The translations under genes and the position numbers were made by a program. DNA of 64,000 nt from Chthoniobacter flavus (lineage in GTDB: Bacteria; Verrucomicrobiota; Verrucomicrobiia; Chthoniobacterales; Chthoniobacteraceae), in contig CAMAUX010000023.1 in the NCBI GenBank assembly GCA_945861435.1, positions 1-64,000 on the forward strand, read 5' to 3'. The stretch's first letter is position 1. Each line of letters begins with the position of its first letter. This document shows, one piece after another, positions 2-40,780 of the stretch. Under the pieces are notes generated by a model. It made no database searches. It was not told where the DNA came from and saw nothing but the letters and a program-made list of their open reading frames with translations.

Positions 2-919
2 CAGCGTAAAGCTCATGGGACAGCATCCGCCCGAGAAAGAAAATCCCGCTCGCGAAAGCTGCAATTGCCTCCGCTCAAATTTCGCCGCCCTCCCTCTGTA
101 AAAGTCCCTTCAGAACCTCGGTTTCCTCAGGCTGTGGGATGGCTGTGGAATTTGAGCGCGTTCATGCAGGCGGTGAAGCAGCGTTTCAGCCAGTGGTTGA
201 ACACCCGCGATGAGCGGGCCGGGACACTTTGGGAAGGTCGCTTCAAGAGCGTGCTCGTGGAGGGGGCCGGCCGGACGCTTGCGACCATGGCTGCTTACAT
301 TGATCTCAACCCGGTGCGCGCGGGGATCGTGCGGGAACCCGGCCGTTATCGATGGAGCGGGTACGGCGAGGCGATGGCAGGCCGGCCATTGGCGCGTCGC
401 AGACTGCGGAGGGTGGTGCTCGGAGTGCTGGTGGAAGATCTACCAACTCAATCCGCCCAGTCTCCCCTGTCCGCCACAGACCACGTTCGAAGGAGCGTTC
501 CTCAGCGTAATCACGGTGATGGCTCCGCGCGTGAGGATCGTAAAGAGACGCGACGCGTGCTTTCGGCGTATCGGATGTACGTTTTCGAGAACGGAGTGGA
601 ACGGGCTCCGCAACCCGGGGACCCGAGATGCCGACGAGCCCGCCGGGGCATGTCCATGCAGGAGGTGGACGAGGTGATCCGGATGGGTGGACATCTGGGT
701 TTCTACGAGGCGATGCGGTGTCGGGTGAGGTATTTCACGGACGGTTGCGTACTGGGGTGTCGGGCATTTGTGGAGGGGTTCTTCGGCAAAAACCGAGAGA
801 GGTTTGGGAGCAGAAGAAAGAGCGGCGCACGCGATTTGCGCGGCGTGGAAATACCGTGGCTATTCACGGTCCGAGATTTGCGGCGCGCGGCGATCCGTCG
901 CACTAAACCCGTGGCGTGA
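2..919 (+). pseudogene. REP-associated tyrosine transposase (Y1_Tnp family), 5'-incomplete
   Basis: The reading frame is open from the left edge, so no true start is visible. The block from about nt 150 to 390 matches the C-terminal half of REP-associated/IS200-type transposases: a KQRFSQWLN helix, GTLWEGRFKSVLVE, then AAYIDLNPVRAGIV, whose Tyr (nt 296-298) sits at the expected nucleophile position. The family's HUH histidine pair (usually HFHLL) should lie upstream. The basic, proline-rich stretch before nt 150 does not resemble that domain, so the gene is either cut by the window edge or 5'-degenerate. Such proteins nick and move short palindromic repeats in cis. Short repeats do occur elsewhere in this window, but a link is only inferred. 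Confidence 0.6.
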
Positions 920-6648: not shown

Positions 6649-6675
6649 TCCCGCAATGGGGGCCGGGCCGGGGCA

Positions 6676-6704
6676 GGAGAAAAATTCCCTGTCCCTATCG
6701 GGCT
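6676..6704 (-). repeat. ATAGGGACAGG motif, copy 1
   Basis: Plus strand reads GGAGAAAAATTCCCTG then TCCCTATCGGGCT. It starts 27 bp after the sulfatase stop. The same 29-bp sequence recurs exactly at 7229 and 7596. Confidence 0.85.
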
Positions 6705-6725
6705 GTCCCATCGCATCGCCAGCCT

Positions 6726-6935
6726 CTCGCGCCCCTGACCGGGGTGCGTCGCGTGGGGAAATGCGGTCCGGTGGTTTCCTGCGTCCGGAGCCAATAGGGA
6801 CAGGCAAAATCTCCTCGCATCATCAGCCTTCTCGCGCCCCTGACCGGGGTGCGTCGCGTGGGGAAATGCGATCCGGTGGTTTCCTGCGTCCGGAACCAAT
6901 AGGGACAGGCAAAATCTCTTCGCTGCTGTCGGAAC
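6726..6935 (+). repeat. 105-bp tandem repeat, two copies
   Basis: Copies at 6726-6830 and 6831-6935 differ at only a few positions. Each begins CTCGCGCCCCTGACCGGGG, contains GGGGAAATGCG, and ends with an ATAGGGACAGGC motif. A more diverged inverted copy lies at about 7690-7801. Confidence 0.88.
6791..6814 (+). repeat. ATAGGGACAGGC motif, copy 2
   Basis: CCAATAGGGACAGGCAAAAT followed by CTCC, inside the first 105-bp repeat. Confidence 0.85.
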
Positions 6936-6959
6936 CAATAGGGACAGGCAAAATCTCTT
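6896..6959 (+). repeat. ATAGGGACAGGC motif, copies 3 and 4 in tandem
   Basis: Two copies of CCAATAGGGACAGGCAAAAT plus CTCTT at 6896-6920 and 6935-6959 form a 39-bp direct repeat with the spacer CGCTGCTGTCGGAA. The remnant of a PEP-CTERM gene ends just downstream. Confidence 0.85.
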
Positions 6960-6984
6960 CGCTGCTGTGGAACGCGAACCCGAG

Positions 6985-7228
6985 CTACTCGCGCTTGAAG
7001 CGGCGGCGCTCGCGGCAGGCTATCAGGCCGAGCAGGAGGCCGCCGGCAATCCATGTGGAGGGCTCGGGAACGGCGGTGAGTTCGTAGTAATTGTTGCCGT
7101 TGAAACTCACCTGCGTCTCGCCGGCAAGTGAGCCGTTGAGGCTGATCCGGCCGAGCACGCCGGATACCGAGTTACTGAAAAGCACACGGCCGTTGCCGGT
7201 GGCGCCGAAGTTGGTGAAGGCCAGGAGA
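6985..7228 (-). pseudogene. 3' remnant of a PEP-CTERM sorted protein gene
   Basis: The minus-strand frame ends in the PEP-CTERM signal: a VPEPSTW motif, a hydrophobic segment (IAGGLLLGLIA) and a basic tail RERRRFKRE, then a stop at 6985. Upstream it keeps about 45 residues of a typical passenger C-terminus (FTNFGATGNGRVLF, ending NNYYELTA). The coding sequence ends exactly against motif copy 5 at 7229, and nothing upstream continues it, so the 5' part of the gene is gone. An intact gene of this type would carry an export signal and be sorted by an exosortase; no exosortase gene is visible in the window. Confidence 0.8.
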
Positions 7229-7257
7229 GGAGAAAAATTCCCTGTCCCTATCGGGCT
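7229..7257 (-). repeat. ATAGGGACAGG motif, copy 5
   Basis: Identical to copy 1. It forms the junction between the PEP-CTERM remnant and the duplicated epimerase fragment. Confidence 0.88.
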
Positions 7258-7564
7258 CGCGTCTGCGGAGTGAGAAAGCGCTCACGGAAAAACCGGATGC
7301 CGAGCCGGCCGCTGCACAGGATCAAGCCGCCGAGCAGGGCATCAATCAACACGACGCTGCGCGGCGGCGCCCACGGCATTGCGACATACTCGTAGCCGAA
7401 CGCGACAAAGCACGCACTCGCCACACAGACACCCAGGATCCGCCTGAGGTCTGGCGTGCTGAAATAGCTCAGCGAATCCTCGAACTGGCCGAACGCGTAC
7501 AACACCGCGAGCTTCAACGCGGCCACCCAGAGCAGCACCGCCCCCAAAGACGCGCCCAACGTCT
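7258..7564 (-). pseudogene. 307-bp duplicated fragment of the epimerase/dehydratase gene
   Basis: This block aligns without gaps to 9559-9865 in the intact gene downstream (constant offset 2301) with about six mismatches, roughly 98% identity. It encodes residues 45-146 of that protein (from LGASLGAVLLW to FFRERFLTPQ), that is, transmembrane helices without the catalytic domains. It has no start of its own and is framed by motif copies at 7229 and 7596, so it is a non-functional scrap. Confidence 0.93.
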
Positions 7565-7595
7565 ATTCGCCTCACGTCTCAGTGGGCTTGGAAGA

Positions 7596-7624
7596 GGAGA
7601 AAAATTCCCTGTCCCTATCGGGCT
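7596..7624 (-). repeat. ATAGGGACAGG motif, copy 6
   Basis: Identical to copies 1 and 5, in the same orientation. It lies 31 bp beyond the end of the duplicated fragment. Confidence 0.88.
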
Positions 7625-8012
7625 CGGCAACATCGGCACGCCGGAGGCATGAGAGAAATTAGCCGGCCGGTGACCGGCGGCCGCAACGCGCACGCAGGGA
7701 ACCACCGGAACCCGTTTCCCCACGCGACGCGCTCCGGCATGGGGCGCGAGAAAACCGATGATGCGAGGAGATTTCGCCTGTCTTTGTAGCCCCCATCGGC
7801 TGTCGGCTCCGTTATCTACCAACCTGAGCGCACTCCCCTCCGACCACATTCCGCTTCGGCAAAAAACGTGCCTCCAACCCGCAGAGGAATCGCCTCATCC
7901 GCCCCCCCCAGTATCCAGCGACCGGATCAAAACCCGCCTGCACTCCGGACCACGAAGCAGATCCTCTCAGGTCGATCCACAAGCCCACCGCCCACCGCCC
8001 ACCGCAACCATC
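7625..8012. other. Gene-free stretch with a diverged inverted repeat copy
   Basis: Nt 7690-7750 are an inverted, diverged copy of the 105-bp repeat, and 7767-7801 a degenerate motif copy. The rest, up to the end of the epimerase gene, shows no gene or RNA I can recognise. Confidence 0.6.
7767..7801 (-). repeat. Degenerate ATAGGGACAGGC motif, copy 7
   Basis: Plus strand GGAGATTTCGCCTGTCTTTG then TAGCCCCCATCGGCT. It keeps the CGCATCATC flank seen next to copy 2, but inverted. Confidence 0.6.
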
Positions 8013-9998
8013 TCAACCCAACCCCGCCTTCAACGCTCCTCCCGCCTGAATCTGCGCCTCCCCGGCACCCACCAATTCCCCAGCAGCCTCCCCGCCACCA
8101 CCGACCACACATCCCGCTCCCCTGACTCCCCCCATCTGCGGCTGGTATTCGGGAACCACCCGCTTGAGCAAAACCTTGAGTTCGTCGCATGACGCCACCG
8201 GCAGCACCGTGACAAGGCTCTCAAGGATCGCCTTCATCGCCCCGTAGCGCGCCGGCTCACCGCGCAACCGCAGGATCTTCGGATGCTCCGTGGCCAACAC
8301 GTTTTCAGAGCGATGACTCAGCTCTTCAAAAAGTTTCTCCCCGGGACGCAACCCCGTGAACACCACCTCGATGTCCTCCCCAGGACGCAGCCCGCTCAGT
8401 TCGATCATCTGCCGTGCAAGATCCGCGATCTTCACAGGCTCGCCCATATCCAGCACAAAAATTTCCCCGCCCTCCGCCTGCGCAGCACTCTGCAGCACGA
8501 GACTCACCGCCTCCGGGATCGTCATGAAATAGCGCGTCACCTCCGGATGCGTCACCTTCACGGGCCCGCCTGCCGCGATCTGCCGGGTGAAGATCGGCAC
8601 CACACTGCCTGAACTCCCCAGCACATTGCCAAAGCGCACCGCCACAAACCGCGTGCATCCGCCCTCCCTCTGCTGCAGCCCCTGCACCACCTTTTCCGCA
8701 AGCCGCTTGGTGGCCCCCATCACATTGGTCGGATTGATCGCCTTGTCCGTGGAAACCAGCAGAAAAAGTCCTGTCCCATGGCGCCACGCCAGTTCCGCCA
8801 CCTGTGCAGTCCCGAGCACATTATTGCGCAGAGCCTCTGCCGGCTGCCCCTCCATCATCGGCACGTGCTTATGCGCCGCTGCATGGAACACCACGGCGGG
8901 CTTGTGCGTCCCGAACACCGCCCCCATGCGCACCGCATCCGTCACATCGGCCACCACAGCCTCCACCCGACCACCCTGCCCCATTTCCAAAAGCTCCTGT
9001 TCAATGGGAAAGAGCGCCGCCTCCGAACGTTCCACCAGCAGCAGACGCGCAGGCTCCATCGCCGCAATCTGACGGCACAGCTCCGAGCCAATGCTTCCGC
9101 CCGCTCCCGTCACCATCACCACACGCCCCACCAGCAGCGAGCGCACATTCTCAGAACCAATCTCCACCACGTCGCGCCCGAGAAGATCCTCGATCTGCAC
9201 CGCACGCAGACTGCTCACGCTCACCCGCCCAGTAGCCAACTGCCCCATCGACGGGATCGTACGGAATCGGACCCCGGATTTCTGCACCACCTCCACGATC
9301 TCCCGCAGACGCGCCGGGCGCACGGAAGGCATCGCGATCACCACCTCGTCCAACCTTGCGCCCAGCCCCTTCTCCGCCAGCCATTCCGGAGGCCCCCATA
9401 CCGCAATGCCGTGCACTCGCGAACCAGGACGCCGGTGATCGTCGAAGAACGCCACAGGCCGCAGCCCCAGCCATCCTTTCGCCAGCAGATCGCGTGCAAG
9501 CGCCGTCCCCGTGTCCCCGGCCCCGATCACACCCACCCGCCGCGGACGCTTCATCCCGCGCGTCTGCGGAGTGAGAAAGCGCTCACGGAAAAACCGGATA
9601 CCGAGCCGGCCGCTGCACAGGATCAAGCCGCCGAGCAGGGCATCAATCAACACGACGCTGCGCGGCGGCGCCCACGGCATTCCGACATACTCGTAGCCGA
9701 ACGCGACAAAGCACGCACTCGCCACACAGACACCCAGGATTCGCTTGAGGTCTGGCGTGCTGAAATAGCTCAGCGAATCCTCGAACTGGCCGAACGCGTA
9801 CAACACCGCGAGCTTCAACGCGGTCACCCAGAGCAGCACCGCCCCCAAAGACGCGCCCAGCGTCTCCGGCACGTCGAAGTCGAAGCGCAGCTCATACGCA
9901 AGCCACAGCCCCACCATGCTCCCCCCTGCGTAAAGCGTCCCAAGCGTCACAAGGCGCGCCGCGCGTCCATTGGCCAGAAATCCGTAGATCGTGTTCAT
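8013..9998 (-). CDS. Membrane-bound nucleotide-sugar epimerase/dehydratase (CapD/PglF-like)
   Basis: 661 residues. Four N-terminal transmembrane helices (about 1-140) are followed by a first Rossmann-like region (VGVIGAGDTG, from about 154) and then the catalytic SDR domain with VMVTGAGGSIGSELCRQ. The catalytic STDKAINPTNVMGATKR segment carries the Ser/Thr-Asp-Lys and ATK pattern of the inverting 4,6-dehydratase/5-epimerase family (WbpM, FlaA1, PglF). It most likely makes a UDP-4-keto-6-deoxy sugar. The DegT aminotransferase next to it would then aminate the product. A Gly/Ala-rich C-terminal tail of about 40 residues looks non-conserved. It follows the aminotransferase by about 1 bp. Confidence 0.9.
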   Translation of the reverse strand: MNTIYGFLANGRAARLVTLGTLYAGGSMVGLWLAYELRFDFDVPETLGASLGAVLLWVTALKLAVLYAFGQFEDSLSYFSTPDLKRILGVCVASACFVAFGYEYVGMPWAPPRSVVLIDALLGGLILCSGRLGIRFFRERFLTPQTRGMKRPRRVGVIGAGDTGTALARDLLAKGWLGLRPVAFFDDHRRPGSRVHGIAVWGPPEWLAEKGLGARLDEVVIAMPSVRPARLREIVEVVQKSGVRFRTIPSMGQLATGRVSVSSLRAVQIEDLLGRDVVEIGSENVRSLLVGRVVMVTGAGGSIGSELCRQIAAMEPARLLLVERSEAALFPIEQELLEMGQGGRVEAVVADVTDAVRMGAVFGTHKPAVVFHAAAHKHVPMMEGQPAEALRNNVLGTAQVAELAWRHGTGLFLLVSTDKAINPTNVMGATKRLAEKVVQGLQQREGGCTRFVAVRFGNVLGSSGSVVPIFTRQIAAGGPVKVTHPEVTRYFMTIPEAVSLVLQSAAQAEGGEIFVLDMGEPVKIADLARQMIELSGLRPGEDIEVVFTGLRPGEKLFEELSHRSENVLATEHPKILRLRGEPARYGAMKAILESLVTVLPVASCDELKVLLKRVVPEYQPQMGGVRGAGCVVGGGGEAAGELVGAGEAQIQAGGALKAGLG

Positions 9999-39414: not shown

Positions 39415-39428
39415 CAATAGGGACAGGC
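39415..39428 (+). repeat. ATAGGGACAGGC motif, copy 8, interrupted by the intron
   Basis: CAATAGGGACAGGC ends exactly where the group II intron 5' end GTGCG begins. Confidence 0.75.
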
Positions 39429-39849
39429 GTGCGCCGGAGAATGCGGTGCTCAAGCGGGTGAAAGTCCCGTCTGCCGAGTGGGCTGTATGCGGCAGTGATG
39501 AGTCGGGAACTGCGTCGCCGTGAGGCGGGGTGGAGAGCAACCGATTCAAGACAGCCAGGCCGTAATGAAAATGAACCACAGATGAGCGTCGAAAACTTCC
39601 TCTCAGAGCCAGCCGAGCCGATGCCTGTCGGTGAGCCGAACGCAGTGAGACAGACTGCCGCAGGCAGCCCGTAGGGTGCGAAGCATCAACGCCAGCGAGG
39701 TCAGCCCAAGAGCAACAGTCCGGCTGACGCAACCTCTGAGGGCGTATTCGTGGACGGCATGGTTGGAAATGACACCGAGATAAACCGGGAGATCTGCTCG
39801 GGCGGGGCGAAAGCCTCAACCGCCGCTTCAAGCCTGTACGCAGGTAAGG
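39429..39849 (+). ncRNA. Group II intron, 5' fragment (no reverse transcriptase, no domain V)
   Basis: The sequence starts GTGCG, the group II 5' consensus, and continues with the characteristic GCGGGTGAAAGTCCCGTC element. Further on come GAGTCGGGAACTGCGTCGCC and GGCGGGGTGGAGAGCAACCG of domain I, and a domain III-like GGGGCGAAAGCCTC. No intron-encoded protein and no domain V (usually GAGCCGTATG and CGTACGGTTC) follow. The element stops against a motif copy at 39850, so it is a truncated, probably splicing-dead remnant. Assignment is by recognition of conserved intron elements, not by folding. Confidence 0.75.
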
Positions 39850-39884
39850 GATAGCGGATAGGGACAGGCAATTTCTCCACTCTG
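39850..39884 (+). repeat. ATAGGGACAGGC motif, copy 9
   Basis: GATAGCGGATAGGGACAGGC then AATTTCTCCACTCTG, directly after the intron remnant. The 35-bp form recurs at 39999 and 40186. Confidence 0.88.
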
Positions 39885-39998
39885 TTGAGCCAGCCGCCAA
39901 CCACCTCCAACGCAGCGCGATCCCTCGCCCTCTGCTCGTCCTACCCCACCCCCACCGTCCGCGTCAGCAGATTCTGGGAAAACGCGAAATGCGCATTG
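39885..39998. other. Scrap between two motif copies
   Basis: On the minus strand one frame reads FAFSQNLLTRTVGVG and then a stop, which looks like the C-terminal end of some protein without the rest. I do not recognise the source gene. It resembles the gene scraps at 6.9-7.6 kb in being bounded by motif copies. Confidence 0.4.
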
Positions 39999-40372
39999 AT
40001 AGCGGATAGGGACAGGCAATTTCTCCACTCTGCCTCTCCTCCCAACGCCCTGCCTTGGAGCCCCCCCTTGTAGCCGATAGGGACCCCCTGCCACCGCGCC
40101 CACGCTCAAACACCTCTCCACATACCGCAACACCCTCCGCAGCTCACGCCTCTGCGCGGCATCGGAACTCCGAGAAATGGTAAGGGATAGCGGATAGGGA
40201 CAGGCAATTTCTCCACTCTGCCTCTCCTCCCAGCGCCCTGCCTTGGAGCCCCCCTTGTAGCCGATAGGGACCCCCGCCACCGCGCCCACGCTCAAACAGA
40301 CCTCTCCACATACCGCAACACCCTCCGCAGCTCACGCCTCTGCGCGGCATCGGAACTCCGAGAAATGGAGAA
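39999..40372 (+). repeat. 187-bp tandem duplication with motif copies
   Basis: Two copies, about 39999-40185 and 40186-40372, are nearly identical apart from small indels. Each contains the 35-bp motif (39999-40033; 40186-40220), a CTGCCTTGGAGCCCCC block, a TGTAGCCGATAGGGAC half-motif (40069-40084; 40256-40271), and about 80 bp from the 3' end of the hypothetical gene at 40292-40669. A 2-bp difference (CAAACACCTC versus CAAACAGACCTC) changes that gene's reading frame at its stop. Confidence 0.88.
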
Positions 40373-40669
40373 CTCCAACAACGTCACCAGACTGTTCGCC
40401 AACCCCAGTGCGTTGAGTGCATCCGCATCCACCCCCTCAATCGGCGCCAATGGGGCAAGTCCGACCATTTCCCGGACATGCCCGTAATTTTTTCGTAGCC
40501 ACTCGATGAGTTGCGCATGGCTGAGTCGCCCGTCCTCCAAAGGACAACCGCTCGCCAGACAGACCTTCACAAACGCCCGGCTCACCCGGGCGTGGTGACA
40601 TAGCTGCTCCACCGGAAGCGGAATGAAGTCCTCCGGCCCAAACTGAATCATCGCAGGGGAACGTTGCAT
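40292..40669 (-). CDS. Hypothetical protein with possible HTH segment
   Basis: 125 residues from ATG 40669. A helical region IPLPVEQLCHHARVSRAF followed by VKVCLASGCPLEDGRLSHAQLIEWL resembles a MerR/CbpM-like helix-turn-helix. The C-terminal half (NALGLANSLVTLLEFSI, then RRELRRVLRYVERSV) is helical. I do not recognise a family. The last roughly 27 codons are duplicated downstream in the tandem repeat, where the reading frame is shifted. No good ribosome site is seen, so the start is uncertain. Confidence 0.55.
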   Translation of the reverse strand: MQRSPAMIQFGPEDFIPLPVEQLCHHARVSRAFVKVCLASGCPLEDGRLSHAQLIEWLRKNYGHVREMVGLAPLAPIEGVDADALNALGLANSLVTLLEFSISRSSDAAQRRELRRVLRYVERSV

Positions 40670-40780
40670 GGAACTCAATGAAGCATAGAGCGCGCCACTC
40701 CCGCGCAGATCCATTGCGCCGCGTCACGACACCAGCCTCCCATTTGACGCCCAATCCCACCCCATGCAAAAGTACAACCC

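Follow-up and report, generated by a model that had tools for sequence, protein, structure and literature searches.

The window, by which we mean the whole 64,000-nt stretch of Chthoniobacter flavus DNA analysed here, contains two patches in which a short motif recurs among pieces of other genes. The first patch (6655–7801) holds seven motif copies, the number given in the preliminary description: six exact copies of ATAGGGACAGG at 6688–7618 and one degenerate copy. Copy 1 (AGCCCGATAGGGACAGGGAATTTTTCTCCT; 6675–6704, minus strand) has 30 nt identical to copies 5 (7226–7257) and 6 (7593–7624), both also on the minus strand, and copies 2 (6788–6818) and 3 (6893–6923) lie on the plus strand; all five carry the exact core. 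Copy 4 (6932–6962, plus strand) is a blunt tandem duplication of copy 3, with a shared segment of 39 nt and a spacing of 39 nt. Degenerate copy 7 (...AAAGACAGGCGAAATCTCC...; about 7770–7789, minus strand), recognised from its sequence and by alignment, heads a copy of a hairpin-rich dispersed repeat of about 150 nt, LR (7633–7782, minus strand), and partial LR matches occur at 6725–6787 and 6819–6892 (plus strand). In agreement with the preliminary description, the irregular spacing of motif copies (39 to 553 nt) rules out a CRISPR array.

Unrelated gene pieces do lie between the copies. One is the tail of a PEP-CTERM gene (6970–7222, minus strand), which from about 6983 to 7222 is 79–88% identical to PEP-CTERM gene ends in contigs C27, C45 and C18. 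In the window and in C45 such tails directly neighbour motif clusters, and in C18 there is one close to a cluster. Another is an epimerase gene fragment (7258–7564, minus strand), 98.0% identical over 307 nt to positions 9559–9865, which belong to an intact epimerase-like gene of the polysaccharide-biosynthesis type (8013–9998, minus strand; identified as an open reading frame and by BLAST) 2 kb away. One junction of this fragment has a short shared AGACG. The idea that each minus-strand scrap directly follows a motif copy fails here, because the epimerase piece is set off by about 30 nt of other DNA. When congeners were compared for empty sites, epimerase relatives were 67–70% identical and the sulfatase had one weak relative (48%), on another contig.

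The second patch had been said to hold the same motif together with gene ends and an intron piece. It has four exact copies of ATAGGGACAGG (39417–40204), and the gene end proved to be part of a local 185-nt tandem duplication, whose upstream copy (39998–40180) is 97.3% identical to the other (40186–40368) and carries a motif plus the 3′ end of the neighbouring gene at 40292–40714 (minus strand). Motif copies with core matches lie at 39843–39884, 39991–40032 and 40179–40220 (all plus strand), and a fourth, with the exact core (39417–39428, plus strand), sits directly 5′ of the end of a group II intron. The intron piece, a 5′ portion (39429–39848, plus strand), is joined exactly to ATAGGGACAGGC, and its first part is 95–98% identical to pieces in L047, L075 and L048, each behind GGGACAGGC. 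In this genome the intron begins exactly after GGGACAGGC at four loci and after a GGGACAGGTG variant at a fifth, the intron 3′ end is followed by AAAATCTCC as 3′ exon, and the GCCTGTC of the intron, a putative EBS1, is complementary to GACAGGC in the motif. The motif is probably a homing site of the group II intron, which would be a passenger of the patches rather than their cause, a separate explanation for what had been listed as a captured scrap. Intron pieces seated exactly in the motif (ATAGGGACAGGC^AAAATCTCC) were seen at L043 (180–770), L047 (4137), L048 (3946), L075 (2846) and in the window (39429). The L043 copy keeps domain V in about 570 nt with no room for an ORF, so that its maturase would have to be supplied in trans. 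The intron in C15 has itself received a motif-bearing cassette, with about 32 nt lost.

The recurrence noticed in the window extends through the genome (5.35 Mb, 105 contigs), in which ATAGGGACAGG has 117 exact copies on both strands and the reversed-pattern control has none; for the shorter core GGGACAGGCAA the count is 149 (control, 2). Of the three congeners compared, one has three copies of ATAGGGACAGG and the others have none. The consensus in the Chthoniobacter flavus genome is RATAGGGACAGGCAAAATYTCC, with GGGACAG as core, and dinucleotide shuffles of the window gave a mean of 0.32 matches at no more than one mismatch (maximum 2). Motif copies are grouped in clusters, many of them near contig ends, so the true copy number probably exceeds 117. 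The same right-hand families (LR, 'CACTGCCCTCGTGTCC...' and 'GAATGGCACTTAG...') stand downstream of the motif at several unrelated loci. The second family, GAATGGCACTTAG...AAGGGGCTTC, was observed behind the motif at L040, L044, L053, L062 and L073. An Rfam scan of the 64,000-nt window returned nothing at gathering thresholds, and no account of the motif turned up in a full-text literature search for GGGACAG together with transposase, a Thiomargarita match being a primer.

Marks of breakage surround these sites. We scored a stutter where the 8 nt to the left of GGGAC were repeated within 90 nt upstream, and found stutters in 41 of 187 distinct motif contexts in this genome (22%), compared to 3 for the reversed 8-mer and 54 of 4974 random positions (1%); duplication is thus about 20 times commoner at the motif than at random positions. 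The left flank differs locus by locus (TGCGGTCCA, GGTGCATA, GAGTCGATA and others), indicating local duplications rather than copies of one master. Twelve of 25 directly adjacent duplications in this genome are joined with no overlap and six with an overlap of 1 nt, joints that favour filled-in breaks and disfavour slippage. The commonest end points of partial copies are after G, GG or GGGAC, the right-hand ends of duplications are scattered (after G, GG or GGGAC, or at +17 to +29), and a search for a sequence preference at the restart points found none. To the left of the core, 21% of same-cluster pairs share at least 9 nt, compared to 1.9% of pairs between loci, and 3% share at least 16 nt; to the right, the corresponding values are 32%, 2.9% and 5%. 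The duplicated site is therefore compact, typically 16–35 nt with the motif included, and the duplicated segments enclose from 0 to about 1,300 nt of other DNA.

In the stretches around motif clusters that were compared, a small number of pieces could be traced to a source: the epimerase, RAYT, gene-end and PEP-CTERM pieces each copy, or are related to, a gene that is still present, in three of the four cases nearby. Most traced pieces were therefore copied from neighbouring DNA whose source was left in place. These results suggest that the genome has been repeatedly broken and patched at the motif. The preliminary description, which had the motif as a recombination or insertion site that captures DNA fragments, was right about a site of repeated breakage and insertion that gathers DNA pieces, but many of the scraps arose locally, by copying or tandem duplication, and were not captured from afar.

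That description had also suggested looking for an enzyme gene shared by genomes with the motif, and such a gene accompanies the motif both here and in other genera. Six genes in the genome matched Y1_Tnp (PF01797), and five of them encode proteins of about 390 aa that resemble REP-associated tyrosine transposases (RAYTs) and are 80–89% identical to a reference copy (PF01797 E 5.5e-14, above cut-off). The window itself has a RAYT gene remnant (137–916, plus strand) that lacks the N-terminal HUH part and is 80% identical to RAYT residues 125–390. In an alignment of eight proteins, the HUH motif NHxH (NHVH here) and the tyrosine signature YIDLNP are invariant, the latter fitting the class 2 signature Y---NP (PMC6006769). 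The match to NCBIfam NF047646 (REP-associated tyrosine transposase; E 3.7e-16, 59.3 bits) is split by an insertion between HUH and Tyr and falls below the cut-off of 80, marking the RAYTs here as divergent relatives. About 113 residues separate the HUH motif from the tyrosine (His64 to Tyr178), and the 390-aa protein has a long C-terminal tail. The earlier suggestion of an uncharacterised system thus holds only in part, since RAYTs form an established family of transposases.

Each of the five intact RAYT genes is preceded, at no more than about 300 nt, by a motif of the GGGACAGGCA type or by one that differs from it in a single base (GGGTCAGGCAA in C64). The form in C15, C20 and C86 is GGGACAGGCA(A/G)T with a stretch resembling (C/T)(C/T)ATCAAA behind it, at about 70 nt from the RAYT start codon. 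Pieces of the gene accompany it: in C15, two that both begin at gene nt 299 and end at 501 and 597 lie between GGCTTCAAGGGACAGGCAGTTTATCAAAGC copies directly before the intact RAYT gene, with their ends meeting the local flank via GGG and GG, and in C20 and C86 truncated RAYT starts stand ahead of the intact genes. Most of the 117 motif copies sit away from RAYT genes. LR, which has at least 45 matches genome-wide (for example at L064, 4460–4620), mostly directly 3′ of a motif variant, is possibly a non-autonomous RAYT element.

The linkage recurs in other Verrucomicrobiota. In a scan of named genomes from many members of the phylum, 57 of 71 verrucomicrobial RAYT loci had GGGAC[AG]G, in one orientation or the other, at up to 130 nt from the RAYT start and mostly at 54–67 nt, compared to 3/56 and 3/62 (about 5%) in two controls; a further control window, some 1,300 nt beyond the start, gave 12/64, which may reflect a right-hand motif. 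The exact core is absent from 14 of the 71 loci. An unbiased ranking of 7-mers in the 130 nt upstream placed GGGACAG first (39% of loci compared to 1.3% of background windows), with its reverse complement CTGTCCC also high. The motif is upstream only at 44 of 65 loci and on both sides at 9. Other genera have the same core upstream of their RAYT genes with species-specific tails (GGGACAGACACTTT, AAAGGGACAGGTC, GGGACAGGCCTTTTG and others), and these variants are dispersed in turn: the count of GGGACAGACACTTT is 94 in G020, 32 in G002, 16 in G012, 14 in G034, 10 in G024 and 7 in G032, with 0–2 elsewhere and none in controls, and AAAGGGACAGGTC has 12 copies in G038, including one beside each of four RAYT genes. 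In G020, the motif nearest the RAYT genes is a close variant of GGGACAGACACTTT and not the exact word, and G032 and G034, in which GGGACAGACACTTT is dispersed, gave no RAYT match at the threshold used. Stutters recur at the loci of other species (68/397; control, 3). We also observed that at more than one third of the verrucomicrobial RAYT loci (among L205–L278) the upstream motif is reversed (TGCCTGTCCCTTT), about 55–65 nt before the gene, and in several cases stuttered on its outer side.

Proteobacterial plasmid RAYTs present a like picture with GGGG(T/A)CAG. Skermanella, Pseudoalteromonas, R. rubrum and P. aeruginosa have plasmid records in which similar stutters at GGGGTCAGA/GGGGACAG adjoin RAYTs, with stuttered copies such as CACGCAAATGGGGTCAG in Skermanella mucosa, GGAAATGGGGTCAGAG in S. 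rosea and GAATAAAGGGGACA in P. aeruginosa. Pseudoalteromonas and R. rubrum have inverted motif copies on both sides of the RAYT, and Photobacterium has a variant. The motif is absent from RAYT relatives of Paraburkholderia, Caballeronia and Saccharobesus, the last of which has a long insertion, and a search of phages for RAYT relatives gave no match.

Several known systems share parts of this arrangement. IS91/ISCR elements and Helitrons combine an HUH enzyme, one fixed end and a variable other end with captured neighbouring gene fragments, and their enzymes are larger, rolling-circle HUH proteins. The HUH enzyme, single fixed end and gene fragments seen here resemble such one-ended transposition, whereas the Y1 enzyme and the locus-specific site duplication do not. 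PATEs, which are palindrome-associated elements with IS200/IS605-like ends, are alike in carrying unrelated DNA. They are also non-autonomous and stem from the transposase superfamily to which RAYTs belong (PMC4853749). The ends of PATEs, however, are palindromic, whereas here there is one short non-palindromic motif with ragged right ends.

The closest comparison is with REPtrons, in which a RAYT (TnpAREP) is paired with REPs or REPINs. As in REPtrons, a Y1 HUH transposase (HxH, Y---NP) is encoded by a low-copy gene whose flanking sequence is dispersed through the genome in clusters, and gene and repeat co-vary between species (PMC2817692, PMC8266576). Dispersal in many copies, correlated with RAYT, is accordingly of the REP/REPIN type. 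Unlike in REPtrons, the motif flank has no GTAG-headed palindrome, copies carry locus-specific duplicated flanks and gene pieces, and the motif is mostly on the 5′ side only. The consensus RATAGGGACAGGCAAAATYTCC lacks the GT(A/G)G head of REPs and REPINs, and folding of the motif gave no hairpin (z-scores from −1.2 to 0.6 at five verrucomicrobial sites); the R. rubrum site is palindromic, with a folding z of −2.2. The motif is thus not a canonical REP, and with neither hairpin nor GTAG guide the known rule of RAYT recognition is not directly applicable. We also considered GGAC as a described REP head tetranucleotide and rejected it, as it has no occurrence in PMC2817692 or PMC8266576. The TnpAREP subclasses 2.1 and 2.3 (PMC6006769) likewise have long proteins and several diverged copies per genome without a canonical REP nearby, and subclass 2.3 agrees further in its long HUH-to-Tyr spacing (median 110 residues, about 113 here; PMC6006769) and long C-terminal tail. 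Both subclasses differ in being described without an identifiable REP-like flank, whereas the genes here have a non-palindromic flank motif.

We consider it reasonably probable that the motif is the cognate site of the RAYT, a Y1 HUH transposase of single-strand DNA, and that RAYT nicks and error-prone repair duplicate the site and patch in mostly local sequence. Originally, the motif would have been the 5′ boundary of a RAYT element. RAYT acting in trans would nick DNA at or near the GGGAC of dispersed copies, the repeated breaks being due to the enzyme or to processing of its nicks, and fill-in and rejoining of the ends would yield a blunt tandem duplication of 9–40 nt around the site. A free 3′ end could instead be extended on a nearby template and return, which would leave copied DNA between two locus-specific copies of the site. 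Because every event would leave the motif intact, the site would be reusable and the patches would grow. Both RAYT cleavage at the motif and this route of repair we infer from sequence patterns, and the opposite orientation of the motif at more than one third of verrucomicrobial RAYT loci is unexplained by a simple strand-specific nick. Further points against this model are the scatter of duplication right-hand ends, which do not fall at one point, the absence of a hairpin or GTAG guide, the 14 verrucomicrobial loci without an exact core, the proteobacterial RAYT relatives that lack the motif, and the two genomes (G032 and G034) with a dispersed variant but no RAYT match at the threshold used.

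Strict transposition, in which motif-headed cassettes (the RAYT element, LR and others) are excised and inserted beside motif copies like IS200/IS605 elements or integron cassettes with scraps as passengers, is an unlikely alternative. It would account for the motif at the head of RAYT copies and for the LR, 'CACTGCCCTCGTGTCC...' and 'GAATGGCACTTAG...' families behind it at unrelated loci, but the traced scraps are single or local copies, their right ends vary, and the duplicated site is locus-specific with 8–14 nt of local left flank, which precise insertion would not create. Distinctly less probable is that the motif is only a RAYT promoter or operator, with arrays formed by replication slippage and recombination between dispersed repeats. 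A promoter would be in keeping with the near-constant spacing between motif and RAYT start and with the TTGAC-like box that follows the motif after about 20 nt; most of the 117 copies, however, lie away from RAYT genes, blunt duplications without homology do not fit slippage, and duplication is roughly 20 times as frequent at the motif as at random positions. We regard it as very improbable that the group II intron made the patches through repair, with scraps, of intron-nuclease breaks at its homing site: the exact seating of its 5′ ends, its 3′ exon and the GCCTGTC–GACAGGC pairing are as expected, but five intron pieces face 117 motif copies, the same stutter accompanies different motif variants in further genera and phyla, and RAYT linkage is left unexplained. 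Least credible of all is an assembly artefact of this metagenome-assembled genome, which contig ends at many motif clusters might suggest, as many clusters are mid-contig and plasmid records and other genomes have the same stutters.

Extended beyond this genome, RAYT action at the motif becomes a more tentative proposal, one we would put at somewhat under even chances: that RAYTs without canonical REPs, in Verrucomicrobiota as in Proteobacteria, share the site GGG(G)(A/T)CAG, which is mostly non-palindromic, cut there, and so drive general local copying of genes via fill-in and template switching. If so, repair of breaks at dispersed sites would preserve the site each time, and gene pieces would collect there as mosaics. 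For the large RAYT subclasses that lack REPs, the main survey could identify no REP-like flank (PMC6006769), and a short motif at a near-fixed place is a candidate substrate for such enzymes. Should RAYT act at the motif, the enzyme's effect on its host genome would stand recorded in the stutters and scraps, and this activity could explain repeat patches where metagenome assemblies break.

Two minor observations concern the surroundings of the clusters. Contigs of this genome (G000) often stop within about 1 kb of a motif cluster, as do C6, C9, C15, C17, C21, C29, C38, C40, C45, C46, C65, C75, C81 and C82. At L070 (5930–6000), tandem GATGCGCTAGCTTA-like repeats adjoin a motif cluster, and kindred phrases (CCGATGCGGTGGCTTA) occur at the motif patch of C27.
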